A stretch of DNA of 24,598 nucleotides from a virus: IMG/VR virus record IMGVR_UViG_3300049440_000488, positions 1 through 24,598 of that record. One strand, written 5' to 3'. The position numbers and the translations under genes were made by a program. The notes under the pieces were generated by a model. That model saw nothing but the letters and a program-made list of their open reading frames with translations, had not been told where the DNA came from and did no database searches. Positions 13,730 to 21,500 of this stretch are shown here, piece after piece. How positions within the stretch are numbered: the first letter of the stretch is position 1; each line of letters begins with the position of its first letter.

Positions 13730-15451
13730 ATGCCAGACAATGAATTTTTGATCAAGATAACCGGTGACGCCAGCCAGGCCAAAGAGGCTATCAATGCGGC
13801 AAAAGAGCAGCTCGATAAGGCTGGTAAGTCAGTTGAGATGCTGGCCGACCTCATCGGCGTGAAGGTACCCGACGCTCTCAAGAAAATGATTGCGTCGAGC
13901 GAAGTGGTGGGACCGGCGCTGGCAGAAGCGTTTGGGCCTTTGTCATTGATCATCTTCGGCATTGAGATTTTGCAACGCGTTGCCGAGAAGATGGAGCAGA
14001 TGGATGAAGAGGCTGAAAAGCACCGCTTAGCATGGCAAGACATCGGTATAGCTTCCAACGATGCAACCACAAAAATTGAAGATGGGATCGAAAAGCAGGA
14101 GCAGAAGTACGTTGAAATCACGCAGGGCCCAATTGCCGGCATGGAATTTGCTTTGGGGCACATGCGCAGTGTTGCGCTTTCAGCCTTTGCCGATATTGCC
14201 GGAGCCATGGACAGGGTGGCTGCTGAACTAACCGAAGAGAGCAGTTGGTTCAACGTCAACAAGGAAGCGGCCGCCGATATCAAGGCCACGATAGGCGACA
14301 TGCATAAGGCGATGGACGACGCGGTCAAGGCCGCGCCGAAAGACCCGTTCGCGCCCATCATTGCGCAGGAAGGCGTACTAAAGGCCAAGATCGACGAAAC
14401 CAATGATACGATTGACCGCCGGTCTGCGAACATGGGCGCGGACAAGAGCCTTGTTGATCCACTGAAGCAAGAGGTTGCGCTTTATGAGGACATACTCTCC
14501 AAGCTTCGACTGCAGAAAGACTTGCAAGCTGAGGCTCTAAAGACCGCCAACGCGGAGATTAATAAAGCCAAGACAGATCGCAGTGTAACCATCGATGTCG
14601 CAAAAATCGAGGCGCACAAAAAGACCAACGACGCGATCATCCAGCAAGAGCAAGAGACAATTCGCGAGTTGGCTGCTGCCCACCAGATCAGCGCGGAAGA
14701 AGAGCTGTCCCTTAACAAAACAATTCTGGACCAGAAGTTCACCCAGGATGAGACGGCCCTCCAAAAGAAACTGGAGCAACTCAGCCGCGATCGCGACCGC
14801 AATGCCGCGCAAATCATTTCGGTTCAAGGCGAGATCAAGGCATTGACCACGCAGCACTATACCGAGCTGGAAAAGCTGAACGCCGACTATTACAAACAAG
14901 TCGACCACAACGGACAAGAGGCTGTAAGTAAAGCAGCATCGAAGATGCATGCGTTTTTGCAGCAGATAAAAGAATCGCAGCAGATCATTCTTGAATCGGC
15001 CAAGGCTCATGATCAGGCCATGGGCCAGATCGCAGATCAACGGCTTAACTTCGAACTGCAAATTGGCAAGATCAGTCAAACCAACTATGAGAAACAACTG
15101 CAATGGGAGATGGCCGAGACTTACGCGAATGAACGCGCCAAGCTTGAGGCCAAGCGTCAGGCCGCTGAAGGCAACCTGGTGGAACAGGCGAAGGTAGATG
15201 CGGAACTGCAAAAGCTGGACGATAAATATCGGGCCGAGTCAGAAAAGGCCGAGCAGCAGTCACTCCTGAGGCGCCGCCAGCAGTTCGACCAATATTTTAA
15301 ACAGGTCACCTCTGCCTTTAATACGGCATTGAATGGCTGGATGCAAGGAACGGAGACGGCCAGCCATGCCTTCGGCAAAATGTTTCAAGACATCATTTCT
15401 CAGCTGATTAATTTTGTGGAGCAATGGATCGAAAAGATTGCTTCAGGCTAA
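13730..15451 (+). CDS. Tape measure protein, probably truncated
   Basis: A 573-aa protein has a hydrophobic segment (FGPLSLIIFGIEILQRV, about 69-85) and very long helical, Lys/Glu/Gln-rich coiled coil (about 230-500). It sets tail length and enters the cell envelope during infection. The C-terminus SAFNTALNGWMQGTETASHAFGKMFQDIISQLINFVEQWIEKIASG resembles a segment that in related proteins is followed by a longer hydrophobic tail, but here a TAA ends it. No distal tail, baseplate or fibre gene follows, which fits a deletion at this point. Confidence 0.78.
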   Translation: MPDNEFLIKITGDASQAKEAINAAKEQLDKAGKSVEMLADLIGVKVPDALKKMIASSEVVGPALAEAFGPLSLIIFGIEILQRVAEKMEQMDEEAEKHRLAWQDIGIASNDATTKIEDGIEKQEQKYVEITQGPIAGMEFALGHMRSVALSAFADIAGAMDRVAAELTEESSWFNVNKEAAADIKATIGDMHKAMDDAVKAAPKDPFAPIIAQEGVLKAKIDETNDTIDRRSANMGADKSLVDPLKQEVALYEDILSKLRLQKDLQAEALKTANAEINKAKTDRSVTIDVAKIEAHKKTNDAIIQQEQETIRELAAAHQISAEEELSLNKTILDQKFTQDETALQKKLEQLSRDRDRNAAQIISVQGEIKALTTQHYTELEKLNADYYKQVDHNGQEAVSKAASKMHAFLQQIKESQQIILESAKAHDQAMGQIADQRLNFELQIGKISQTNYEKQLQWEMAETYANERAKLEAKRQAAEGNLVEQAKVDAELQKLDDKYRAESEKAEQQSLLRRRQQFDQYFKQVTSAFNTALNGWMQGTETASHAFGKMFQDIISQLINFVEQWIEKIASG

Positions 15452-15487
15452 TAAAACACAATAGCCAAGGTATAGAGCGGACACGCA

Positions 15488-15751
15488 TCAGCGTTTAAAC
15501 GCCACCCCGAACCGGTTGCCCGCCAACGACAGGCCGACCCTTTTATCGGTGATGAACCGTGCGAAAGCTTTGCTCATAGGGATGTCGTCTGAGCCTCTGG
15601 GGGATTGCGGCGGTGATGCCATTTCTTCAGCCGCAGTTTTGACGCGGTCAAAAAGTTCTGATGGACGGCTGAAAAGCAGCTTGAACAGCAAGCGATATTG
15701 TGCCTTGCGCCCTGATTCACATTCGGATTCTAGCGGAGCGCGCCGCCGCTT
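15488..15751 (-). pseudogene. Leftward coding remnant of unknown protein
   Basis: The minus strand is open from 15751 to the TGA at 15488 and reads as normal protein (ECESGRKAQYRLLFKLLF, then SELFDRVKTAAEEMASPP and SKAFARFITDKRVGLSLAG). There is no ATG. The first usable start is TTG at 15691, which would give 67 aa. It faces against the phage genes, directly after the truncated tape measure, where tail-tip genes should be. It looks like the 3' end of a foreign gene left by a rearrangement. The family is not recognised. Confidence 0.35.
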
Positions 15752-15813
15752 TCACGTTGCCGGCCGCGATTTTGTTTTTTGAGTGGACCATTTCTTTCAT
15801 GAGAGGGAACCCG

Positions 15814-15978
15814 ATGCAAATTCACTTTACAGATTTTGTTACCGCAGCGAACCTGCTGGTGCTGCTGGGGATTTATCGCAAGATGTCGATCATCGTGTAT
15901 CAGCACAAGCTCATGTGGACGGACTTTGCCGAGCGTAAAGGCATCAGCGCGAACGGCAAGCATGCGGCCAGTGTTTAG
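15814..15978 (+). CDS. Small membrane protein (hypothetical phage protein)
   Basis: A 54-aa protein starts at ATG after GAGAGGGA. Residues 9-20 (VTAANLLVLLGI) form one short membrane segment, then comes a basic, aromatic part (YRKMSIIVYQHKLMWTDFAERKGI). The size and layout would suit a small phage membrane protein such as a lysis accessory or a superinfection factor, but nothing diagnostic is present. Confidence 0.55.
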   Translation: MQIHFTDFVTAANLLVLLGIYRKMSIIVYQHKLMWTDFAERKGISANGKHAASV

Positions 15979-15979
15979 G

Positions 15980-16062
15980 ATTGGCCGCGAATGAACGCAA
16001 AACGCGCGAATACAAATCATTTGTTTTATGGTTCGTTTTCCTTCGCGTAATTTGCGGCCGAT
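15980..16062. repeat. 83-bp imperfect palindrome
   Basis: Arms ATTGGCCGCGAAT (15980-15992) and ATTTGCGGCCGAT (16050-16062) match with two wobble-type differences. Inside are further GCGAA/TTCGC stretches and ACAAAT/ATTTGT. The whole stretch between 15978 and the HNH gene can fold into a long hairpin. It resembles dispersed palindromic host repeats. Confidence 0.5.
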
Positions 16063-16110
16063 TATGACTCCACTCTCAACTGCTACAAGCGCTTTTTAAG
16101 GTGAACTCCA

Positions 16111-16374
16111 ATGAAACTTACTCCAAGAGAAAGATTTCTGGCCAAGGTGTGTCCCGAGCCAAACGGTGGGTGCTGGCTATGGCGCGGGATGGTGCGCCCT
16201 GACGGATACGGCGGGACGTCCCTGGACGGGAAGCCGCAAAGCGCGCACCGGGCGGCTTGGATACTGTTCCGCGGCGAGATTGGTCCGGGCTTGTTGGTAT
16301 GTCACAAATGTGATGTACGCGCTTGCGTAAATCCTGAGCACCTTTTCCTCGGAAGTTATGCGGACAATGGGTAG
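16111..16374 (+). pseudogene. HNH endonuclease, N-terminal fragment (split by transposon)
   Basis: This frame starts at ATG after AAGGTGA. It carries a complete HNH_3-type nuclease core: CWLWRG (21-26), AHRAAW, and VCHKCDVRACVNPEHL with His65, Asn74 and His77. The native frame ends at codon 86 (Asn, 16366-16368), where the insertion begins. The transposon terminus then supplies GGG-TAG, so an 87-aa product lacking the DNA-binding tail could still be made. The remainder lies at 19795-20060. Such enzymes are site-specific, homing-type phage endonucleases. Removing 16370-19786 and one GGACAATG restores 174 aa without a frameshift. Confidence 0.85.
16362..16369. repeat. Target site duplication, left copy
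   Basis: GGACAATG directly abuts the left inverted repeat and is repeated at 19787-19794. An 8-bp duplication is within the normal IS1-family range. Confidence 0.9.
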
Positions 16375-16388
16375 TGGTACAGTTTGAA
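16370..16388 (+). repeat. Left terminal inverted repeat
   Basis: GGTAGTGGTACAGTTTGAA is identical in reverse complement to 19768-19786. It contains the TAG that stops the disrupted HNH frame. Confidence 0.92.
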
Positions 16389-16402
16389 AAAGCCCAAAAG
16401 CA

Positions 16403-16445
16403 AAGGGCGACCAAACTCGGTCGCCCTTCACACTTAAAAAGTGTG
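16403..16445 (-). terminator. Tandem hairpins ending the TA operon
   Basis: Read leftward from the antitoxin stop, CACACTT/AAGTGTG (16429-16445) comes first, then a 10-bp stem AAGGGCGACC/GGTCGCCCTT (16403-16428) followed by T-rich sequence. The second shares its GGGCGAC/GTCGCCC stem with a hairpin near the other end of the element (19273-19298). Confidence 0.7.
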
Positions 16446-16447
16446 CT

Positions 16448-16966
16448 CTATGCCGCTTGGAGTTCCCACTGCTCATTAGTGACTTTGGCCACAACAGGCT
16501 TCTTATCCGCAGCATATTGATTCTCATGCCACTCAAGGAACATTTGTCTCAAACGTTGCCTCAATTCGGATAGATTGTTGTCGTCAAGAGCCGCAAGAGC
16601 ATAGTAAAGTCGGATAAATTTATCGTTTGTCTCGCTCAGTTTTTGGTGTCCATTTTCGCAACGAGAGAGTGTTTCTGCCTCAATACCGATTGAACGAGCA
16701 AACTCCACCTGTTTTTGACCGAGGCGCTTTCTGAGGAATCTTACTTCATCGCCGGTCATGGCTGATTCTTGTTCAATGAGATCACGCGCAATAAGCTGCA
16801 TGAGTTGCTTTACAGCAGGAATTTCGGGAACAATGCGACCATCGGGATACGTGAAATATCGAATTCCGACCAAATAGATATTCGACAATCCACTATCTAA
16901 AAAATGAAACGGTTTTTCTTCGGTCGCCACTTGTTCTATTCGTTGCTCAACGCTGTTTTGAGTCAT
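16448..16966 (-). CDS. XRE/MqsA-like antitoxin
   Basis: A 172-aa protein has a central helix-turn-helix: MTGDEVRFLRKRLGQKQVEF, then ARSIGIEAETLSRCENG (about 70-107). It is preceded by IPEIPAVKQLMQLIARDLIEQ. This order (short beta region, IPxI helix, XRE domain) matches MqsA/YgiT-type antitoxins, although the usual zinc cysteines are missing. It should neutralise the upstream protein and repress their transcription. Its ATG overlaps the toxin stop (ATGA), so the two are co-translated with the toxin first. It is the last gene before the left end of the element. Confidence 0.68.
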   Translation of the reverse strand: MTQNSVEQRIEQVATEEKPFHFLDSGLSNIYLVGIRYFTYPDGRIVPEIPAVKQLMQLIARDLIEQESAMTGDEVRFLRKRLGQKQVEFARSIGIEAETLSRCENGHQKLSETNDKFIRLYYALAALDDNNLSELRQRLRQMFLEWHENQYAADKKPVVAKVTNEQWELQAA

Positions 16967-17295
16967 TCATCCCTCCACCTAGTGACAACGGTGAACTCTC
17001 TGCGCAACGTGTCAACTGCAATAATGATTGTGATTGGTTCTGAATCGATGGAGAGTCCATCGATTTCATATTTGTGCTGCCATTCGCCCCGATTAAACTT
17101 CTGTCGAGCAATTGTCCACTCCCCTTCTAAGGCATGGATAACATCATCCGTGCTAAGCCCGCGTTCCAGGTGGTCAAAGAGGGCATGGAAAGTCTCCGGA
17201 TTGTGCTCGTCAGGAGCCCTTTCCAACGCCTCCAGAACCAACTTCTTTAGTTCAGCTGCAGACAGCGGCTCGGGGATAAACCCTGTGCTTGACAT
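16963..17295 (-). CDS. Putative toxin (DUF4258-like, RelE/BrnT-type)
   Basis: A 110-aa protein starts at ATG 17295, with AAGAAAGG 8-9 nt upstream. A TTG at 17325 would add ten residues but lacks a site. The N-terminal half is helical (AAELKKLVLEALERAP). The C-terminal half, LERGLSTDDVIHALEG...WQHKYEI...ITIIIAVDTLRREFTVVTRW, fits the strand pattern of DUF4258-type proteins, small relatives of the RelE/BrnT fold. It overlaps the antitoxin by 4 nt and follows the transposase by 48 bp on the same strand. A role as an mRNA-interfering toxin is inferred from fold pattern and gene pairing. Confidence 0.58.
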   Translation of the reverse strand: MSSTGFIPEPLSAAELKKLVLEALERAPDEHNPETFHALFDHLERGLSTDDVIHALEGEWTIARQKFNRGEWQHKYEIDGLSIDSEPITIIIAVDTLRREFTVVTRWRDE

Positions 17296-17343
17296 AAAGT
17301 TAAGCCTTTCTTGATATTTTGTCAACTAATATGTTTACTGATT

Positions 17344-18183
17344 CTATTGATTACCTTTATTTTCAATCATTTCAAGCAATTCCTCTATTGACCAAACGTG
17401 ATCTGTAAGCCCCGCTTCCATCGCTGGCGTGACTCTCAGCGTTTTGTGAATCCGGCAAAAGTTGTAGTGCATGAAATGCAGGGCGACCGCATGACCGTGG
17501 TTTTCAACCTTTTTAGAAAAGCCATTTGTCAGGCGCGTGAATCGGCGCATTCCCATTCTCATTGTTAGGTTCTGACGTTCTACAAAAGACGTGCTGATAT
17601 GGTCAGGGTCAGGATTGCCGGAGATCGTTGCGGTACGGCATCCAATGCACGTTGCGGGGCTGTAGCGGCTTTCATCCAAACTGGACGGCATGCCATAAAT
17701 CTTTACAAGCATGCTGTAATCAACATCGCCGCCAAAGGCATCTTCCACGGCATCCACGTAAACTCTGTGACCGTCTGTAGTGAGTTGAAAGCGATTTGAA
17801 ATTCTGCTGGCCAGATCACGCATGAAGAATTGGGCAGTAGAAATGCCGCGATTCCCAAGGCAGTACGAGATGATTAGTTTTGTATCGGCATCAATCGCTG
17901 TCCAAGTCCAGCAATCGCCAGCACCTTTAGCCATTTGTTCTTCGGTGACATTCTTTTGCTTCGCATAAACGAAAGACCAAATTTCATCGCACTGGACACG
18001 GCGCACTTTCAGGTTACGAATAGCGCGATTGTGGTATTCAGCGCAAGCGCATCCAATCTGTTCCAACAGTCTCAGGATTGTTACCTTTGAAACCCCCGTC
18101 ATTCTCACGATGGCATTAATGGAAACGCCCTCGACCAGTGCCGCGATTACTTGGGTGCGCTTTTCAGTCTTAAGCAGGTTCAT
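17344..18183 (-). CDS. IS1-family transposase (ISMhu11-like)
   Basis: A 279-aa DDE transposase made from one ORF, without the frameshift used by classical IS1. Residues 8-45 form a helix-turn-helix (VIAALVEGVSINAIVRMTGV, then SKVTILRLLEQIG). Diagnostic motifs follow: QCDEIWSFVYAKQKN (Asp66), WTWTAIDADTKL, LTTDGHRVYVDAVEDAFG (Asp137) and FVERQNLTMRMGMRRFTRLT (Glu202) with HYNFCRIHKTLRVTPAMEAGL. All catalytic candidates are present, so it is probably active. A strong promoter (18193-18221) containing an operator-like repeat controls it. The TA genes lie immediately downstream and may be co-transcribed. Confidence 0.93.
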   Translation of the reverse strand: MNLLKTEKRTQVIAALVEGVSINAIVRMTGVSKVTILRLLEQIGCACAEYHNRAIRNLKVRRVQCDEIWSFVYAKQKNVTEEQMAKGAGDCWTWTAIDADTKLIISYCLGNRGISTAQFFMRDLASRISNRFQLTTDGHRVYVDAVEDAFGGDVDYSMLVKIYGMPSSLDESRYSPATCIGCRTATISGNPDPDHISTSFVERQNLTMRMGMRRFTRLTNGFSKKVENHGHAVALHFMHYNFCRIHKTLRVTPAMEAGLTDHVWSIEELLEMIENKGNQ

Positions 18184-18192
18184 AATGACCTA

Positions 18193-18221
18193 ATCTTATG
18201 CTTGAGCGGTCAAGCAGTCAA
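18193..18221 (-). promoter_or_regulatory. Transposase promoter with operator
   Basis: On the minus strand, TTGACT (18216-18221) and TAAGAT (18193-18198) are exactly 17 bp apart. The spacer is filled by the semi-palindrome CTTGAGCGGTCAAG (18201-18214). A repressor bound there would block RNA polymerase. Confidence 0.65.
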
Positions 18222-18269
18222 GCATAAAATAAACTATTTTTTCCTCTTGACTCTGCTTGAGCGGTCAAG
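18199..18269. repeat. Paired 16-bp operator-like direct repeats
   Basis: TGCTTGAGCGGTCAAG occurs at 18199-18214 and 18254-18269, 55 bp apart. Each lies in the -35/-10 spacer of one of two divergent promoters and contains arms CTTGA/TCAAG. Half-sites (TCAAGCA at 18218-18224) lie between them. The layout suggests one regulator co-repressing transposase and cargo. The regulator may be one of the element's own DNA-binding proteins. Confidence 0.65.
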
Positions 18270-18276
18270 ATACTAT
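18247..18276 (+). promoter_or_regulatory. Rightward promoter, candidate leaderless transcript
   Basis: TTGACT (18247-18252) and TACTAT (18271-18276) are 18 bp apart. The expected start site is at or next to the ATG at 18283, so the mRNA would have no ribosome-binding site. The spacer holds the second copy of the operator-like repeat. Confidence 0.5.
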
Positions 18277-18282
18277 TTATCC

Positions 18283-18444
18283 ATGCCAAGAAAGAAAAAT
18301 AAGGCCGCGCAAGCCCTTGGCAGGCTTGGGGGGTTAAAGGGTGGCAAGGCAAGAGCCAAGAAGCTATCGCCGGAACAAAGGTCGGCAATAGCATCCAAGG
18401 CTGCCCAAGCAAAATGGGCCAAGCACCGCGAACCCGGTGTATAA
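18283..18444 (+). CDS. Small basic protein (Gly/Lys/Ala-rich)
   Basis: A 53-aa protein, MPRKKNKAAQALGRLGG, then LKGGKARAKKLSPEQRSAIASKAAQAKWAKHREPGV. This pattern (xxALGRLGGxKGGKARAxxLxPEQRxxIAxKAAxAxWA) recurs among small bacterial proteins without a settled function. It is strongly basic with a helical second half, so nucleic-acid binding is likely. It diverges from the transposase across the twin operator region, which makes it a candidate regulator of the element. No ribosome-binding site is present, in line with a leaderless mRNA. Confidence 0.68.
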   Translation: MPRKKNKAAQALGRLGGLKGGKARAKKLSPEQRSAIASKAAQAKWAKHREPGV

Positions 18445-18448
18445 TTAA

Positions 18449-18580
18449 CTCGTAAAAAGACACGAGCTGCCTAAAATGGTGGCTTCCCATACGCTCAGTG
18501 CAGGCATCCCGCCAAGGAAAAGACTGCACTGGGCGTTTCGTGTTATGGCCCGGAACTACGGGAAACCCCCGTGGTAGCCC
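18449..18580 (+). ncRNA. Highly structured intergenic region in transposon
   Basis: Downstream of the small basic gene, several stems nest. Outer ACACGA (18460-18465) pairs with TCGTGT (18538-18543). Inside are a short GCC/GGC stem (18469-18483) and a 12-bp stem (18492-18503 with 18524-18535, one G-T pair). A separate 8-bp stem follows, ACTACGGG/CCCGTGGT (18555-18575). An early CTCGT/ACGAG alternative (18449-18466) competes with the outer stem. This could be an elaborate terminator, a small RNA or an attenuator. No ORF explains it. Confidence 0.4.
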
Positions 18581-18624
18581 AAGCTAGGTATCTAACTTCA
18601 TCTTCAGACCTCTAAAAAATCCTC

Positions 18625-19029
18625 CTACGCAATACGCGCATACATGATTGGTGCCTTGGGTGTAAGTCCAGCACGAGCCTCGATTGCTCCCTGTTTCGCC
18701 ATCCTTCTCAGCACCTTGGAAACTGCCAAATATTTGTCTTTGGACGTAAATTTAAATCCGTTCTGCTCCATTTGATCTGCTACGTGCCTCGCACTAACTA
18801 GCCCAGTGGAATGCTGTACAACCGCAACCGCTTCGCGGACTAACTTTGGATTGCGACTCTTGCGCTTGCCGTATTTCCGTGGCAATGGCAATTCTGCCTG
18901 CTGGGGCGCGGCGTTACCGTTGCGCTGCGCAAACAGATGGCGCACTTCCGGCGCGATATCCGGGTCATTCAGCAACTCATGCAGTTGCTGTAATTTTCTA
19001 GATTTGCTTTGGAGAATATCAAATGCCAT
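18625..19029 (-). CDS. Winged-helix cargo protein
   Basis: A 134-aa protein starts at ATG 19029; a TTG at 19062 would add 11 residues, but that lies upstream of the predicted start site. Residues 1-40 are helical and charged. A basic linker (RKYGKRKSRNPK) follows, then a winged helix: SARHVADQMEQNGFKFTSKD, YLAVSKVLRRMAKQGAIEAR, and a wing ending MYARIA. The same architecture, including VLRRMA-x2-G-x-IE, is seen in the prophage gene at 2676-3080. Palindromes and direct repeats at its promoter suggest autoregulation. It may control the element or act as a host-interfering factor. Confidence 0.68.
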   Translation of the reverse strand: MAFDILQSKSRKLQQLHELLNDPDIAPEVRHLFAQRNGNAAPQQAELPLPRKYGKRKSRNPKLVREAVAVVQHSTGLVSARHVADQMEQNGFKFTSKDKYLAVSKVLRRMAKQGAIEARAGLTPKAPIMYARIA

Positions 19030-19041
19030 AACGGTAAATAG

Positions 19042-19092
19042 ATAATACCCCGTTAGCGGCAATAGCGCAACACGCTATTTTTAGCGGCAATA
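19042..19092 (-). promoter_or_regulatory. Promoter and operators of the winged-helix cargo gene
   Basis: On the minus strand, TTGCGC (19065-19070) and TATTAT (19042-19047) are 17 bp apart, about 12 bp from the ATG, so the leader is very short. TTAGCGGCAATA occurs twice (19053-19064 and 19081-19092). A 7-bp inverted repeat AATAGCG/CGCTATT (19061-19079) overlaps the -35 box. Confidence 0.6.
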
Positions 19093-19138
19093 CCCAAGCG
19101 GCTTAGGTGCCATAGAATACAGGGCAAAGCCTAGATTT

Positions 19139-19258
19139 TTACCGTTCTGTGGCTTCCCGCAGAATACGGGCGGCTACCTGATTCACGTCCTCGCGGCGGG
19201 TAGTTGGCTTTTTTGCGGTTTTCTTTTTTAACGGTGTTTTTTTTGATTTCTTCGGCAT
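19139..19258 (-). CDS. Lys-rich mini-protein, 39 aa
   Basis: A short frame from ATG 19258 to TAA 19139 encodes MPKKSKKTPLKKKTAKKPTT, then RREDVNQVAARILREATER. The first half is a poly-basic tail like those of histone-like or ribosome-binding peptides. The second is an amphipathic helix of the kind found at the start of small RHH or antitoxin-like proteins. It lies between the 112-aa gene and the winged-helix gene, all on the minus strand. A TAAAAT -10-like box is just upstream. Composition supports coding, but the role is unknown. Confidence 0.5.
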   Translation of the reverse strand: MPKKSKKTPLKKKTAKKPTTRREDVNQVAARILREATER

Positions 19259-19272
19259 GGCTCTATTTTACA

Positions 19273-19298
19273 GGGCGACCCGTTAAACCGAGTCGCCC
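19273..19298 (-). terminator. Hairpin after the 112-aa cargo gene
   Basis: GGGCGAC (19273-19279) pairs with GTCGCCC (19292-19298), 18 bp past the stop of the leftward gene at 19316. It shares its stem with the hairpin at 16405-16426, so the two ends of the element carry a related palindrome in addition to the terminal repeats. Confidence 0.55.
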
Positions 19299-19315
19299 AA
19301 ACTGCTTAACTCCGA

Positions 19316-19654
19316 TTAGCGTTTCTTGCGTTGCTTGGCAAGTTGCTTTCTGCGTTCTTTGGCCTGAATGAGAACGTCGTTTGGATCACGGATGTACTTT
19401 TCCCAGCGTTGCCGTGCTTTGCCGTATTCGTTCCAATCGTCAAGCTCAAGCTGGTGTAGAGTCTCAAGAAATTCTTGGTTAAATTCGGATTGAAGTTCCT
19501 GAGCAAAACCGGGAAACAATTTTGCAACTTTGGATTTGAACAGTCCGGTGTTCCGTAGCGTGTGAAGGTGTTTAACGACTTCAGAAAAAGCAGTGTTGAG
19601 GTTGGACAGGGTTTCGTATATCCCTGTCTTTTGGGTAACATCAAGAGCAGCCAT
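19316..19654 (-). CDS. Hypothetical cargo protein, 112 aa
   Basis: It starts at ATG with AAAGGC 6 nt upstream, inside a leader hairpin (CCTTTC/GAAAGG, 19661-19674) that could hide the site. The protein is predicted almost entirely helical (GIYETLSNLNTAFSEVVKHL, then FAQELQSEFNQEFLETLHQL) with aromatic DDWNEYGKARQRWEKYI and a basic tail KERRKQLAKQRKKR. I do not recognise the family. It is the gene nearest the right end of the element. Alternative frames over the same bases look non-coding. Confidence 0.6.
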   Translation of the reverse strand: MAALDVTQKTGIYETLSNLNTAFSEVVKHLHTLRNTGLFKSKVAKLFPGFAQELQSEFNQEFLETLHQLELDDWNEYGKARQRWEKYIRDPNDVLIQAKERRKQLAKQRKKR

Positions 19655-19767
19655 GATTCGCCTTTCACGAAAGGTGATTTGTGGTTAGGGGCTTGACCGT
19701 GGTTACACACGGGCCTGCCCCGCTCTCTTTATGGCTGTTTTTGAGATGGAAAACAAGAGGCTGGAAA

Positions 19768-19786
19768 TTCAAACTGTACCACTACC
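19768..19786 (-). repeat. Right terminal inverted repeat
   Basis: TTCAAACTGTACCACTACC is the exact reverse complement of the left terminus at 16370-16388. Homology stops at base 20 on both sides. Confidence 0.92.
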
Positions 19787-19794
19787 GGACAATG
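19787..19794. repeat. Target site duplication, right copy
   Basis: GGACAATG follows the right inverted repeat without a gap and matches 16362-16369. Confidence 0.9.
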
Positions 19795-20060
19795 CGCGCG
19801 ATAGGGAGGAAAAAGGCAGAAGTATGCGCGGTGAAAAGAACCATAGTTCCAAACTTTCAGTGGAACAGGTGAGCAGAATCAAAGCCGTGCTGGCCGAAGA
19901 CCGGATGTATGTGAGCGAGATTGCGCGCGAATATGGCGTAACACCTTCAACCATTGCCGCTATCGCAAAAGGAACGACTTGGCGTCATGTGAAGGCGGCT
20001 GGGCCTGCGGCAGCGGAAACCCCCGCCTTGCCTTCGAGTGTGGCGTCTGGAGACTCGTGA
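19795..20060 (+). pseudogene. HNH endonuclease, C-terminal fragment
   Basis: This is the remainder of the gene begun at 16111. In the restored frame it continues ADN-ARDREEKGRSMRGEKN, then SKLSVEQVSRIKAVLAEDRM and YVSEIAREYGVTPSTIAAIAKGTTWRHVK. That is a helix-turn-helix typical of the C-terminal targeting domain of phage HNH enzymes. An internal ATG at 19824 after AGGAAAAAGG could still give a 78-aa DNA-binding protein without the nuclease. Separated from its catalytic half, this piece cannot cut DNA. Confidence 0.83.
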
Positions 20061-20067
20061 GAACGCC

Positions 20068-20304
20068 TTAGTGCCGCATGGCAAGGGCTGCAATGTCGGG
20101 ATCTTTCGACTGCGCGTGCTTCCAGCGGTTGTGGCCTGCGCTCAAGATAACAGCGGGAATAGGTAGATAAGAGGCAGGAGAAAGCAGTCCAGCGATCGCG
20201 GCCAAAACGGGGAAGACGTCGAAAGAGGTAGGGTAATCGCCGGAATCAGAAAGGCAAGAGCCCAACGCGGGAACGCGGAGAAAGAGCTTAAGCCAACGTG
20301 GCAA
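20068..20304 (-). CDS. Doubtful small ORF downstream of nucleotidyltransferase
   Basis: A 78-aa frame starts at an ATG that overlaps the 3' end of the nucleotidyltransferase by 17 bp. It contains one hydrophobic stretch (VFPVLAAIAGLLSP) and ends HNRWKHAQSKDPDIAALAMRH. No family is recognised and no ribosome-binding site is clear. It could be the translation of an intergenic repeat-like stretch, which would explain its odd Pro/Ser composition. Confidence 0.25.
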   Translation of the reverse strand: MPRWLKLFLRVPALGSCLSDSGDYPTSFDVFPVLAAIAGLLSPASYLPIPAVILSAGHNRWKHAQSKDPDIAALAMRH

Positions 20305-20983
20305 CGTCTTTCAGACGCACCACGAAATTTGGCAAGCGGGCCTGACTGGCGTTATCAGGCAAGAGATAGCCAGGTAGAGCATCCATAAATTGTGGAGTCG
20401 CGAGCAATTTGTTTATTTCAAGGGTGATGTAAATTCTGACATCGTGGGGCGCCAGCACAATTTCCTCTACGATCTCAGGCCGCCCGTCCAGCACCGACAC
20501 TAAATCTTCCAGGTCATGGCTTGCCATGTAGTCCTGCCTGCCACGACCGGCAAATGCCTCCAACTTGGTGGCACAAAAGTGCACGGCAGTCACGGCACGG
20601 ATGCGGAGTCCATTAGGAAGAATGTGTTGTCGCGCCGTATCCATAGCCGCTTTGTACCAGCGATTAGAAAAACCGAGAATCTTCTCGTCCAGGGGCATGA
20701 GATCGAAAATGATTCTCTGCTGCCGCCACCGGCAGATGGGAGCGCCCAGGGAATCGTCTTCAGTAAAGCCAATGTCTCTGAGCCTTTCAGAGAAATCCAC
20801 GTAAGCGGCATATGAGCCTATTGCGGCGATAGCATCCACGTCATAAGAGGTACGAATGGCGGCAGCAGCCTGGTCAGTGATGAACAATGCAGTGGTGCCG
20901 CCTCCGACAAACACAAGCTCGGCAAGGAGCGGTTCCAGGCGACGCGCTGCTTCGGCAAGCAATTGAAGATTAGGATGAGGCAT
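20288..20983 (-). CDS. Nucleotidyltransferase, AbiEii/type IV toxin-like
   Basis: A 231-aa protein of the DNA polymerase beta-type nucleotidyltransferase group. It shows VFVGGGTTALFIT (GGGT 27-30), TSYDVDAIA (Asp48, Asp50) and IIFDLMP (Asp94), the expected metal-binding set. CATKLEAFAGRGRQDYMASHDLEDLVSVLDGR follows, a segment characteristic of AbiEii-like proteins. Such enzymes transfer nucleotides to tRNA or other targets and act as toxins in abortive infection. It overlaps the upstream winged-helix gene by 14 bp, so the two are a coupled pair. It lies outside the transposon and belongs to the prophage cargo. Confidence 0.78.
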   Translation of the reverse strand: MPHPNLQLLAEAARRLEPLLAELVFVGGGTTALFITDQAAAAIRTSYDVDAIAAIGSYAAYVDFSERLRDIGFTEDDSLGAPICRWRQQRIIFDLMPLDEKILGFSNRWYKAAMDTARQHILPNGLRIRAVTAVHFCATKLEAFAGRGRQDYMASHDLEDLVSVLDGRPEIVEEIVLAPHDVRIYITLEINKLLATPQFMDALPGYLLPDNASQARLPNFVVRLKDVATLA

Positions 20984-21500
20984 TCGCGGACCGTAACCTT
21001 TTGACCAGCTCTTGTTCAGCTATATTGCGCTCACGCGCCCGGCCGCTGCGGACGGCGTCGAGCAGCGCCAGATACTCGTATAACAAAGGATCTTTTGAAC
21101 AGGCGACAGGCACGGTTTTATACAGGGGCTGGAAAGAAATACCGCGAACGTGACCCTCATGCCAAGGCCAGACTGGTGGCAGCTCATCCGCCGGCAAGAT
21201 TTCAGCATTGAGGGGCGGCGCCGCATACGAGGTCGGGAGACCACGAGTTGGCTGGCCTAGCTCTGCGGGGAAAACGTATTTGAAGCCATGCAGCAAGAAT
21301 TCCTCAAGCGCTGAAACGTTGGGTTTGCTCTTCATTTCCGTACCATGCAGAAGTCTGGCGACCTGGAGCCGCTTCATTGCTCCGTGTACTTCTGAGGGGC
21401 TCAGCCGCAGATCGCCGGCAATAGCGGATATTGGCGGTCTCTCTCCCGGATAACAGCAGAGCTTCATTACGACCATTACGTCCTGAGGTTTCAAGGCCAT
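20970..21500 (-). CDS. Winged-helix partner/antitoxin of nucleotidyltransferase
   Basis: A 176-aa protein. Residues 1-60 form a MarR/IclR-like winged helix (PQDVMVVMKLCCYPGERPPI, then LRLSPSEVHGAMKRLQVARLL). The C-terminal part is a longer Pro-rich region (about 75-130) ending in a helix with ALLDAVRSGRARERNIAEQELVKRL. It is the first gene of the leftward pair and starts 12 bp from the palindrome in the shared promoter region, so it probably represses the operon. A function as antitoxin or regulator of the nucleotidyltransferase is inferred from pairing and overlap. Confidence 0.68.
   Translation of the reverse strand: MALKPQDVMVVMKLCCYPGERPPISAIAGDLRLSPSEVHGAMKRLQVARLLHGTEMKSKPNVSALEEFLLHGFKYVFPAELGQPTRGLPTSYAAPPLNAEILPADELPPVWPWHEGHVRGISFQPLYKTVPVACSKDPLLYEYLALLDAVRSGRARERNIAEQELVKRLRSANASS

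Follow-up and report, generated by a model that had tools for sequence, protein, structure and literature searches.

Does a toxin–antitoxin (TA) gene pair that directly follows an insertion sequence (IS) transposase in phage DNA belong to the element as cargo, and what would such cargo do? The question is raised by two small minus-strand genes in a 24,598-bp virus record, here called the window. The original prediction described a toxin-first TA pair carried by an IS1-type element, and the reading frames were recovered as described: a 110-aa toxin gene (16963..17295) overlaps a 172-aa antitoxin gene (16448..16966) by ATGA, and the transposase gene, on the same strand, stops 48 bp ahead of the ATG of the toxin. 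Because terminase, portal, head-tail and integrase families were matched in the window, it is classed by gene content as a prophage or phage fragment. A 573-aa gene within 13730-16369 resembles a tape measure gene by eye (no PHROG match), and genes for a tail tip, baseplate or fibres could not be recognised behind it; this may mean a defective prophage or an incomplete record. Two overlapping minus-strand genes at 20288-20983 and 20970-21500 resemble, on visual inspection, a nucleotidyltransferase with an AbiEii-like GG...DxD motif and a winged-helix partner, and are perhaps a second TA-like pair; a Pfam search with the 231-aa protein of these two genes gave no match.

The ends of the element place the TA pair truly inside the IS. 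A 19-bp terminal inverted repeat (TIR), GGTAGTGGTACAGTTTGAA, lies at 16370..16388 on the plus strand, and its partner was located by sequence pair search at 19768..19786 on the minus strand. The first 17 bp match at 17 of 17 positions (minus strand, 19786-19770), and a comparison of both ends showed the repeats to be perfect over 19 bp. When GGTAGTGGTACAGTTTG was searched in the window, exactly two sites were obtained, at 16370 (plus) and 19786 (minus), the chance expectation of the TIR search in shuffles being 0.04 matches with up to three mismatches allowed. Identical 8-bp target-site duplications (TSDs), GGACAATG, flank the repeats at 16362..16369 and 19787..19794. The insertion interrupts a phage HNH endonuclease gene on the plus strand, leaving a 5′ part at 16111..16369 (phrog_1872, 2e-26) and a 3′ part at 19795..20060; HNH matches end at residue 86, where GGTAGTGGTACAGTTTG starts. 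Joining the flanks with one copy of GGACAATG gave a 174-aa open HNH frame, which scores 8e-31 and covers several HNH families further than the broken piece. Given the TIRs, the identical flanks and the restored HNH frame, 16370-19786 is a single insertion, 3,417 bp long. It has 47.7% GC, versus 54.6% in the rest of the phage record. The 19-bp TIR, the 8-bp TSD (8-9 bp being the IS1 range) and the restored target gene agree with IS1 membership and bear out the claim that a toxin-first TA-type pair is cargo of an IS1-type element. The element is intact and may be capable of transposition.

The transposase is an IS1-type DDE protein of 279 aa (17344..18183, minus strand), which matches PF03400 (1.8e-8; 35.2 bits, cut-off 24.1) and, under the cut-off of 100 bits, NF033558 (2.4e-18; 66.8 bits). 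Divergent from it is the gene of a small protein of 53 aa (18283..18444, plus strand), here named KGG after its motif LGGxKGGKARAxxLSxExRxxIAxKAAxARW. In a profile search, whose seed was supplied by 27 of the elements counted, the KGG protein was found to be encoded by 63 of 69 family elements and nowhere in the 428 kb of DNA that flanks them; it may be a new factor in transposition or regulation. The KGG sequence also occurs at the N-terminus of cargo proteins of about 340 aa that resemble the tallied P63C-domain proteins. Two copies of the palindrome TTGAGCGGTCAA (18202..18213, upstream of the transposase, and 18257..18268) lie between the divergent transposase and KGG genes, and the palindrome itself also occurs in elements of other phyla. 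Seven elements have this 12-mer directly ahead of the transposase gene (8 copies versus 0.02 expected); it is absent from the 428 kb of flanks and is a putative operator. Two further minus-strand ORFs, of 145 aa (18625..19062; no match in Pfam or PHROG) and 112 aa (19316..19654; no significant match), complete the element, so that its TIRs enclose, as passengers with no part in transposition, the TA pair and these two ORFs. Thus, the pair is confirmed as cargo, but not as the sole cargo. No resolvase or res site was seen in the window element.

The family assignments of both proteins, as originally proposed, were upheld by alignments of homologues more clearly than by the window proteins alone. 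The toxin by itself reached 16.5 bits against Pfam DUF4258 (PF14076), below the cut-off of 25, and all 16 aligned toxin sequences matched this family at E 0.1 or better (best 7e-12); on this alignment, the toxin is classed as a diverged DUF4258 protein. Its ATG start agrees with the start of the homologue at locus L119, and an alternative TTG start giving 120 aa is also open. Homologues located before MqsA-type genes are 37-57% identical, and H37, D51 and T105 are conserved. Structure prediction from the single sequence gave a poor model (pLDDT 57), with three helices followed by four strands and no PDB match; the alignment profile gave only chance matches, and nothing credible, against PDB sequences. 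A RelE/BrnT-type (BECR) fold is predicted for the toxin from the listing of DUF4258 among BECR-fold toxin families (PMC11980606). The toxin alignment had too little conserved sequence to serve as a viral-contig query, and a plasmid search with the toxin returned no match.

The antitoxin carries a C-terminal XRE/HTH domain and aligns with MqsA-like proteins over its whole length (TIGR03830 1e-10, HTH_31 3e-6). The window protein scored 41.5 bits against the MqsA-family model TIGR03830, below the cut-off of 61.8, and 12 of 12 aligned sequences matched this model. The antitoxin profile aligned to positions 1-120 of E. coli MqsA at E 1e-3 (PDB 3gn5, 2kz8), and BLAST homologues beside DUF4258 toxins are 42-49% identical. 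The N-terminal CxxC...CxxC zinc site is absent in the window antitoxin and in L118, partial in L119 and L120, and complete in distant relatives (L121-L126 and others). This gradient would most simply be a loss series rather than a separate origin, with the window antitoxin standing at the end without zinc cysteines in a range of MqsA-type proteins that also occurs in chromosomes without the IS. The suggestion of a distinct antitoxin subfamily therefore stands for the missing MqsA zinc cysteines and falls short in that the series is not specific to the IS.

Relatives of the pair also lie in chromosomes. Antitoxin relatives were present in 4 of 20 genomes holding related elements and in 16 of 396 genomes of the same phylum, and a small gene precedes the relative in nearly all loci. 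Around the closest pairs (L118-L120), 9-12 kb of chromosome contain no such element; homologous pairs free of a nearby element of this kind lie in Acidobacteriota chromosomes (L171-L173). In viral contigs, one antitoxin search gave no relative and another gave a single relative at 31% identity; searches of plasmids gave only weak matches.

The element family was explored from the window transposase, and the frequencies given here are therefore not population estimates. Transposase relatives were found in 35 viral contigs and 316 genome contigs (80 of the latter were kept), including Acidobacteriota, Verrucomicrobiota, Planctomycetota, Nitrospirota, Actinomycetota, Pseudomonadota, Myxococcota and other phyla. 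Paired ends were sought by script with the consensus GGTANTGNNNCAGTTTGA, and 67 relatives had such ends together with an identical TSD of 8 bp (once 9 bp); two were duplicates, leaving about 65 non-redundant elements. Their lengths range from 1.1 to 4.8 kb with a median of 3.0 kb, and the transposase itself needs less than 1 kb. The TIRs of these relatives enclose differing passenger genes. The closest transposase, in L038 (90% amino acid identity), has only transposase DNA in common with the window element and a ClpP-like gene where the window element has the TA pair. Because cargo turns over in this way, the TA pair is interchangeable rather than fixed in the transposition module. We consider the chances slightly below even that this is an undescribed, cross-phylum element family with a KGG and transposase backbone, which shuttles TA and anti-phage genes among chromosomes, prophages and other replicons with frequent exchange of cargo.

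The cargo of the relatives bears on what the pair may be for. One reading, which is possible but tentative, is that the TA pair mainly acts in defence or competition as one among many such cargoes of the element family. In 140 cargo proteins, Pfam families included HTH, P63C, M78, PemK, SocA-type, NYN, GmrSD and AAA, and PADLOC matches included PD-Lambda-2_B (7), RmrA (4), capP and AriA/PtuA; PD-Lambda-2_B, RmrA, capP, AriA/PtuA, GmrSD, PemK, SocA-type and M78 all speak for defence. PADLOC matched 214 models in the cargo versus 28 in 139 flanking control proteins, which belong mostly to housekeeping Pfam families; these figures count models, several of which may match one protein, and give qualitative support only. 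Against this reading, the controls also contain defence genes (AriA, mad), and many cargo genes, such as P63C and those of no assigned family, are not defence genes. L006, L009, L018, L037, L051, L054, L068, L106 and L108 share a recurrent two-gene cargo, whose products have about 160 aa and about 385 aa; in L006 and L068 only its first gene is intact. Its counts are in keeping with the numbers of PD-Lambda-2_B and M78 matches. Related cargo sets such as this pair may have been inherited together and not arisen as independent events.

TA genes recur in the family in several forms. A second complete element (L139:5177-8259), from the same phylum sample and with its own TIRs and the TSD GTAGTTTT, contains in order KGG, a DUF4258 toxin, an MqsA-type antitoxin with cysteines and the transposase. 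Compared with the window element, the L139 pair sits across the transposase, and it is only distantly related to the window pair, which suggests a separate capture. In L044, whose element ends match poorly, the row is KGG, MqsA, MqsR (PF15723, 4e-21) and transposase, and in L140 a HigB-like gene adjoins a transposase for which element ends were looked for and not found. TA genes thus appear to have been captured repeatedly, each kind being rare. The DUF4258/MqsA pair occurs at only 2 of about 145 transposase loci examined, by which a fixed place of this TA in the element was ruled out.

That the pair mainly serves as an addiction module stabilising the element, as proposed for TA pairs of the Tn3 family (PMC7157771), is conceivable but rather doubtful. 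It would fit the position of the window pair 48 bp behind the transposase and of the L139 pair just before it, both on the transposase strand; however, the cargo of most related elements is of another kind, its orientation and its side differ from element to element, and the MqsR/MqsA pair of L044 is on the opposite strand.

In the favoured reading of a captured pair, the following mode of action is proposed. Promoter-like sites were located upstream of the transposase, and no strong promoter was found on the toxin strand immediately ahead of the toxin gene. Because the 48-bp gap has no clear promoter or terminator on the toxin strand, the pair may be transcribed by read-through from the transposase promoter, and in that way could make loss of the element costlier. 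The toxin would act as a BECR-fold, RNase-like growth inhibitor and the MqsA-like antitoxin would neutralise or hold it. The pair could then raise the cost of element loss, act against phage or competing elements, or both; addiction and defence are both possible benefits of carrying TA genes.

It is unlikely that the two genes are no TA at all but encode a regulator and a small protein that does something else. DUF4258 toxins have an activity undescribed experimentally (PMC11980606), which leaves room for such a role, but the conserved order of toxin then antitoxin, the overlap and the pairing of a small gene with an MqsA-type antitoxin in about 20 homologous loci argue against it, as do the 17 DUF4258-MqsA fusions already reported (PMC11980606). 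A chance neighbourhood of pair and transposase is extremely improbable: homologous pairs do exist without any such element, but the window pair lies between matched TIRs with an 8-bp duplication, the joined flanks restore the target gene, the same TA type recurs in L139, and the ends would have to be coincidental, at about 4^-8 for the TSD alone. Most probably, a transporter IS of IS1 type, with TIRs, an 8-bp TSD and KGG, captured a chromosomal-type DUF4258/MqsA pair and entered the HNH gene of a prophage.

Among known TA systems, the window pair resembles MqsR/MqsA (YgiUT) in that the toxin comes first and the antitoxin profile spans nearly all of E. coli MqsA; it differs in having a DUF4258 toxin in place of MqsR and an antitoxin without zinc cysteines. 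The family match and the pairing with MqsA agree with the DUF4258 (PF14076) toxins of PMC11980606, whereas the usual order there is antitoxin then toxin, the reverse of that in the window and its homologues, and the subgroup of the window toxin has a longer N-terminus. For the TA pairs of Tn3 transposons, a role in establishment has been proposed (PMC7157771). As in those transposons, TA genes of type II appear to be repeated and independent acquisitions here; unlike them, the window element family has no fixed TA position, and no resolvase or res site was seen.

Transporter ISs, which carry passenger genes, are already recognised as a class (PMC9330008, PMC3129680), and PMC3129680 cites for the concept Siguier et al. 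2009, who dealt with IS1595 and IS1. The window element shares with them passenger genes unrelated to transposition within one TIR pair, and its family differs from those known in being IS1-type (PF03400), with a near-constant KGG gene, interchangeable cargo and a spread over many phyla. The concept is thus known, and the family is apparently without a description in the openly readable literature searched, where none was found, ISfinder and subscription papers lying outside that search. With the IS1 family (NF033558, PF03400), it has in common the transposase domain, a TSD of about 8 bp and a TIR starting GGT; unlike IS1, it has a single ORF of 270-290 aa that scores below the NCBIfam IS1 cut-off, elements mostly of 2-4.8 kb and the TIR GGTAGTGNNNCAGTTTGAA. 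Defence genes are mostly known from large islands, prophages and plasmids. If the proposed role of the family is true, a 2-5 kb element with a single transposase would be among the smallest vehicles for exchangeable TA and defence-type genes, and its clean, defined ends would allow cargo to be easily listed across genomes, thereby offering a direct route to new TA and defence genes.
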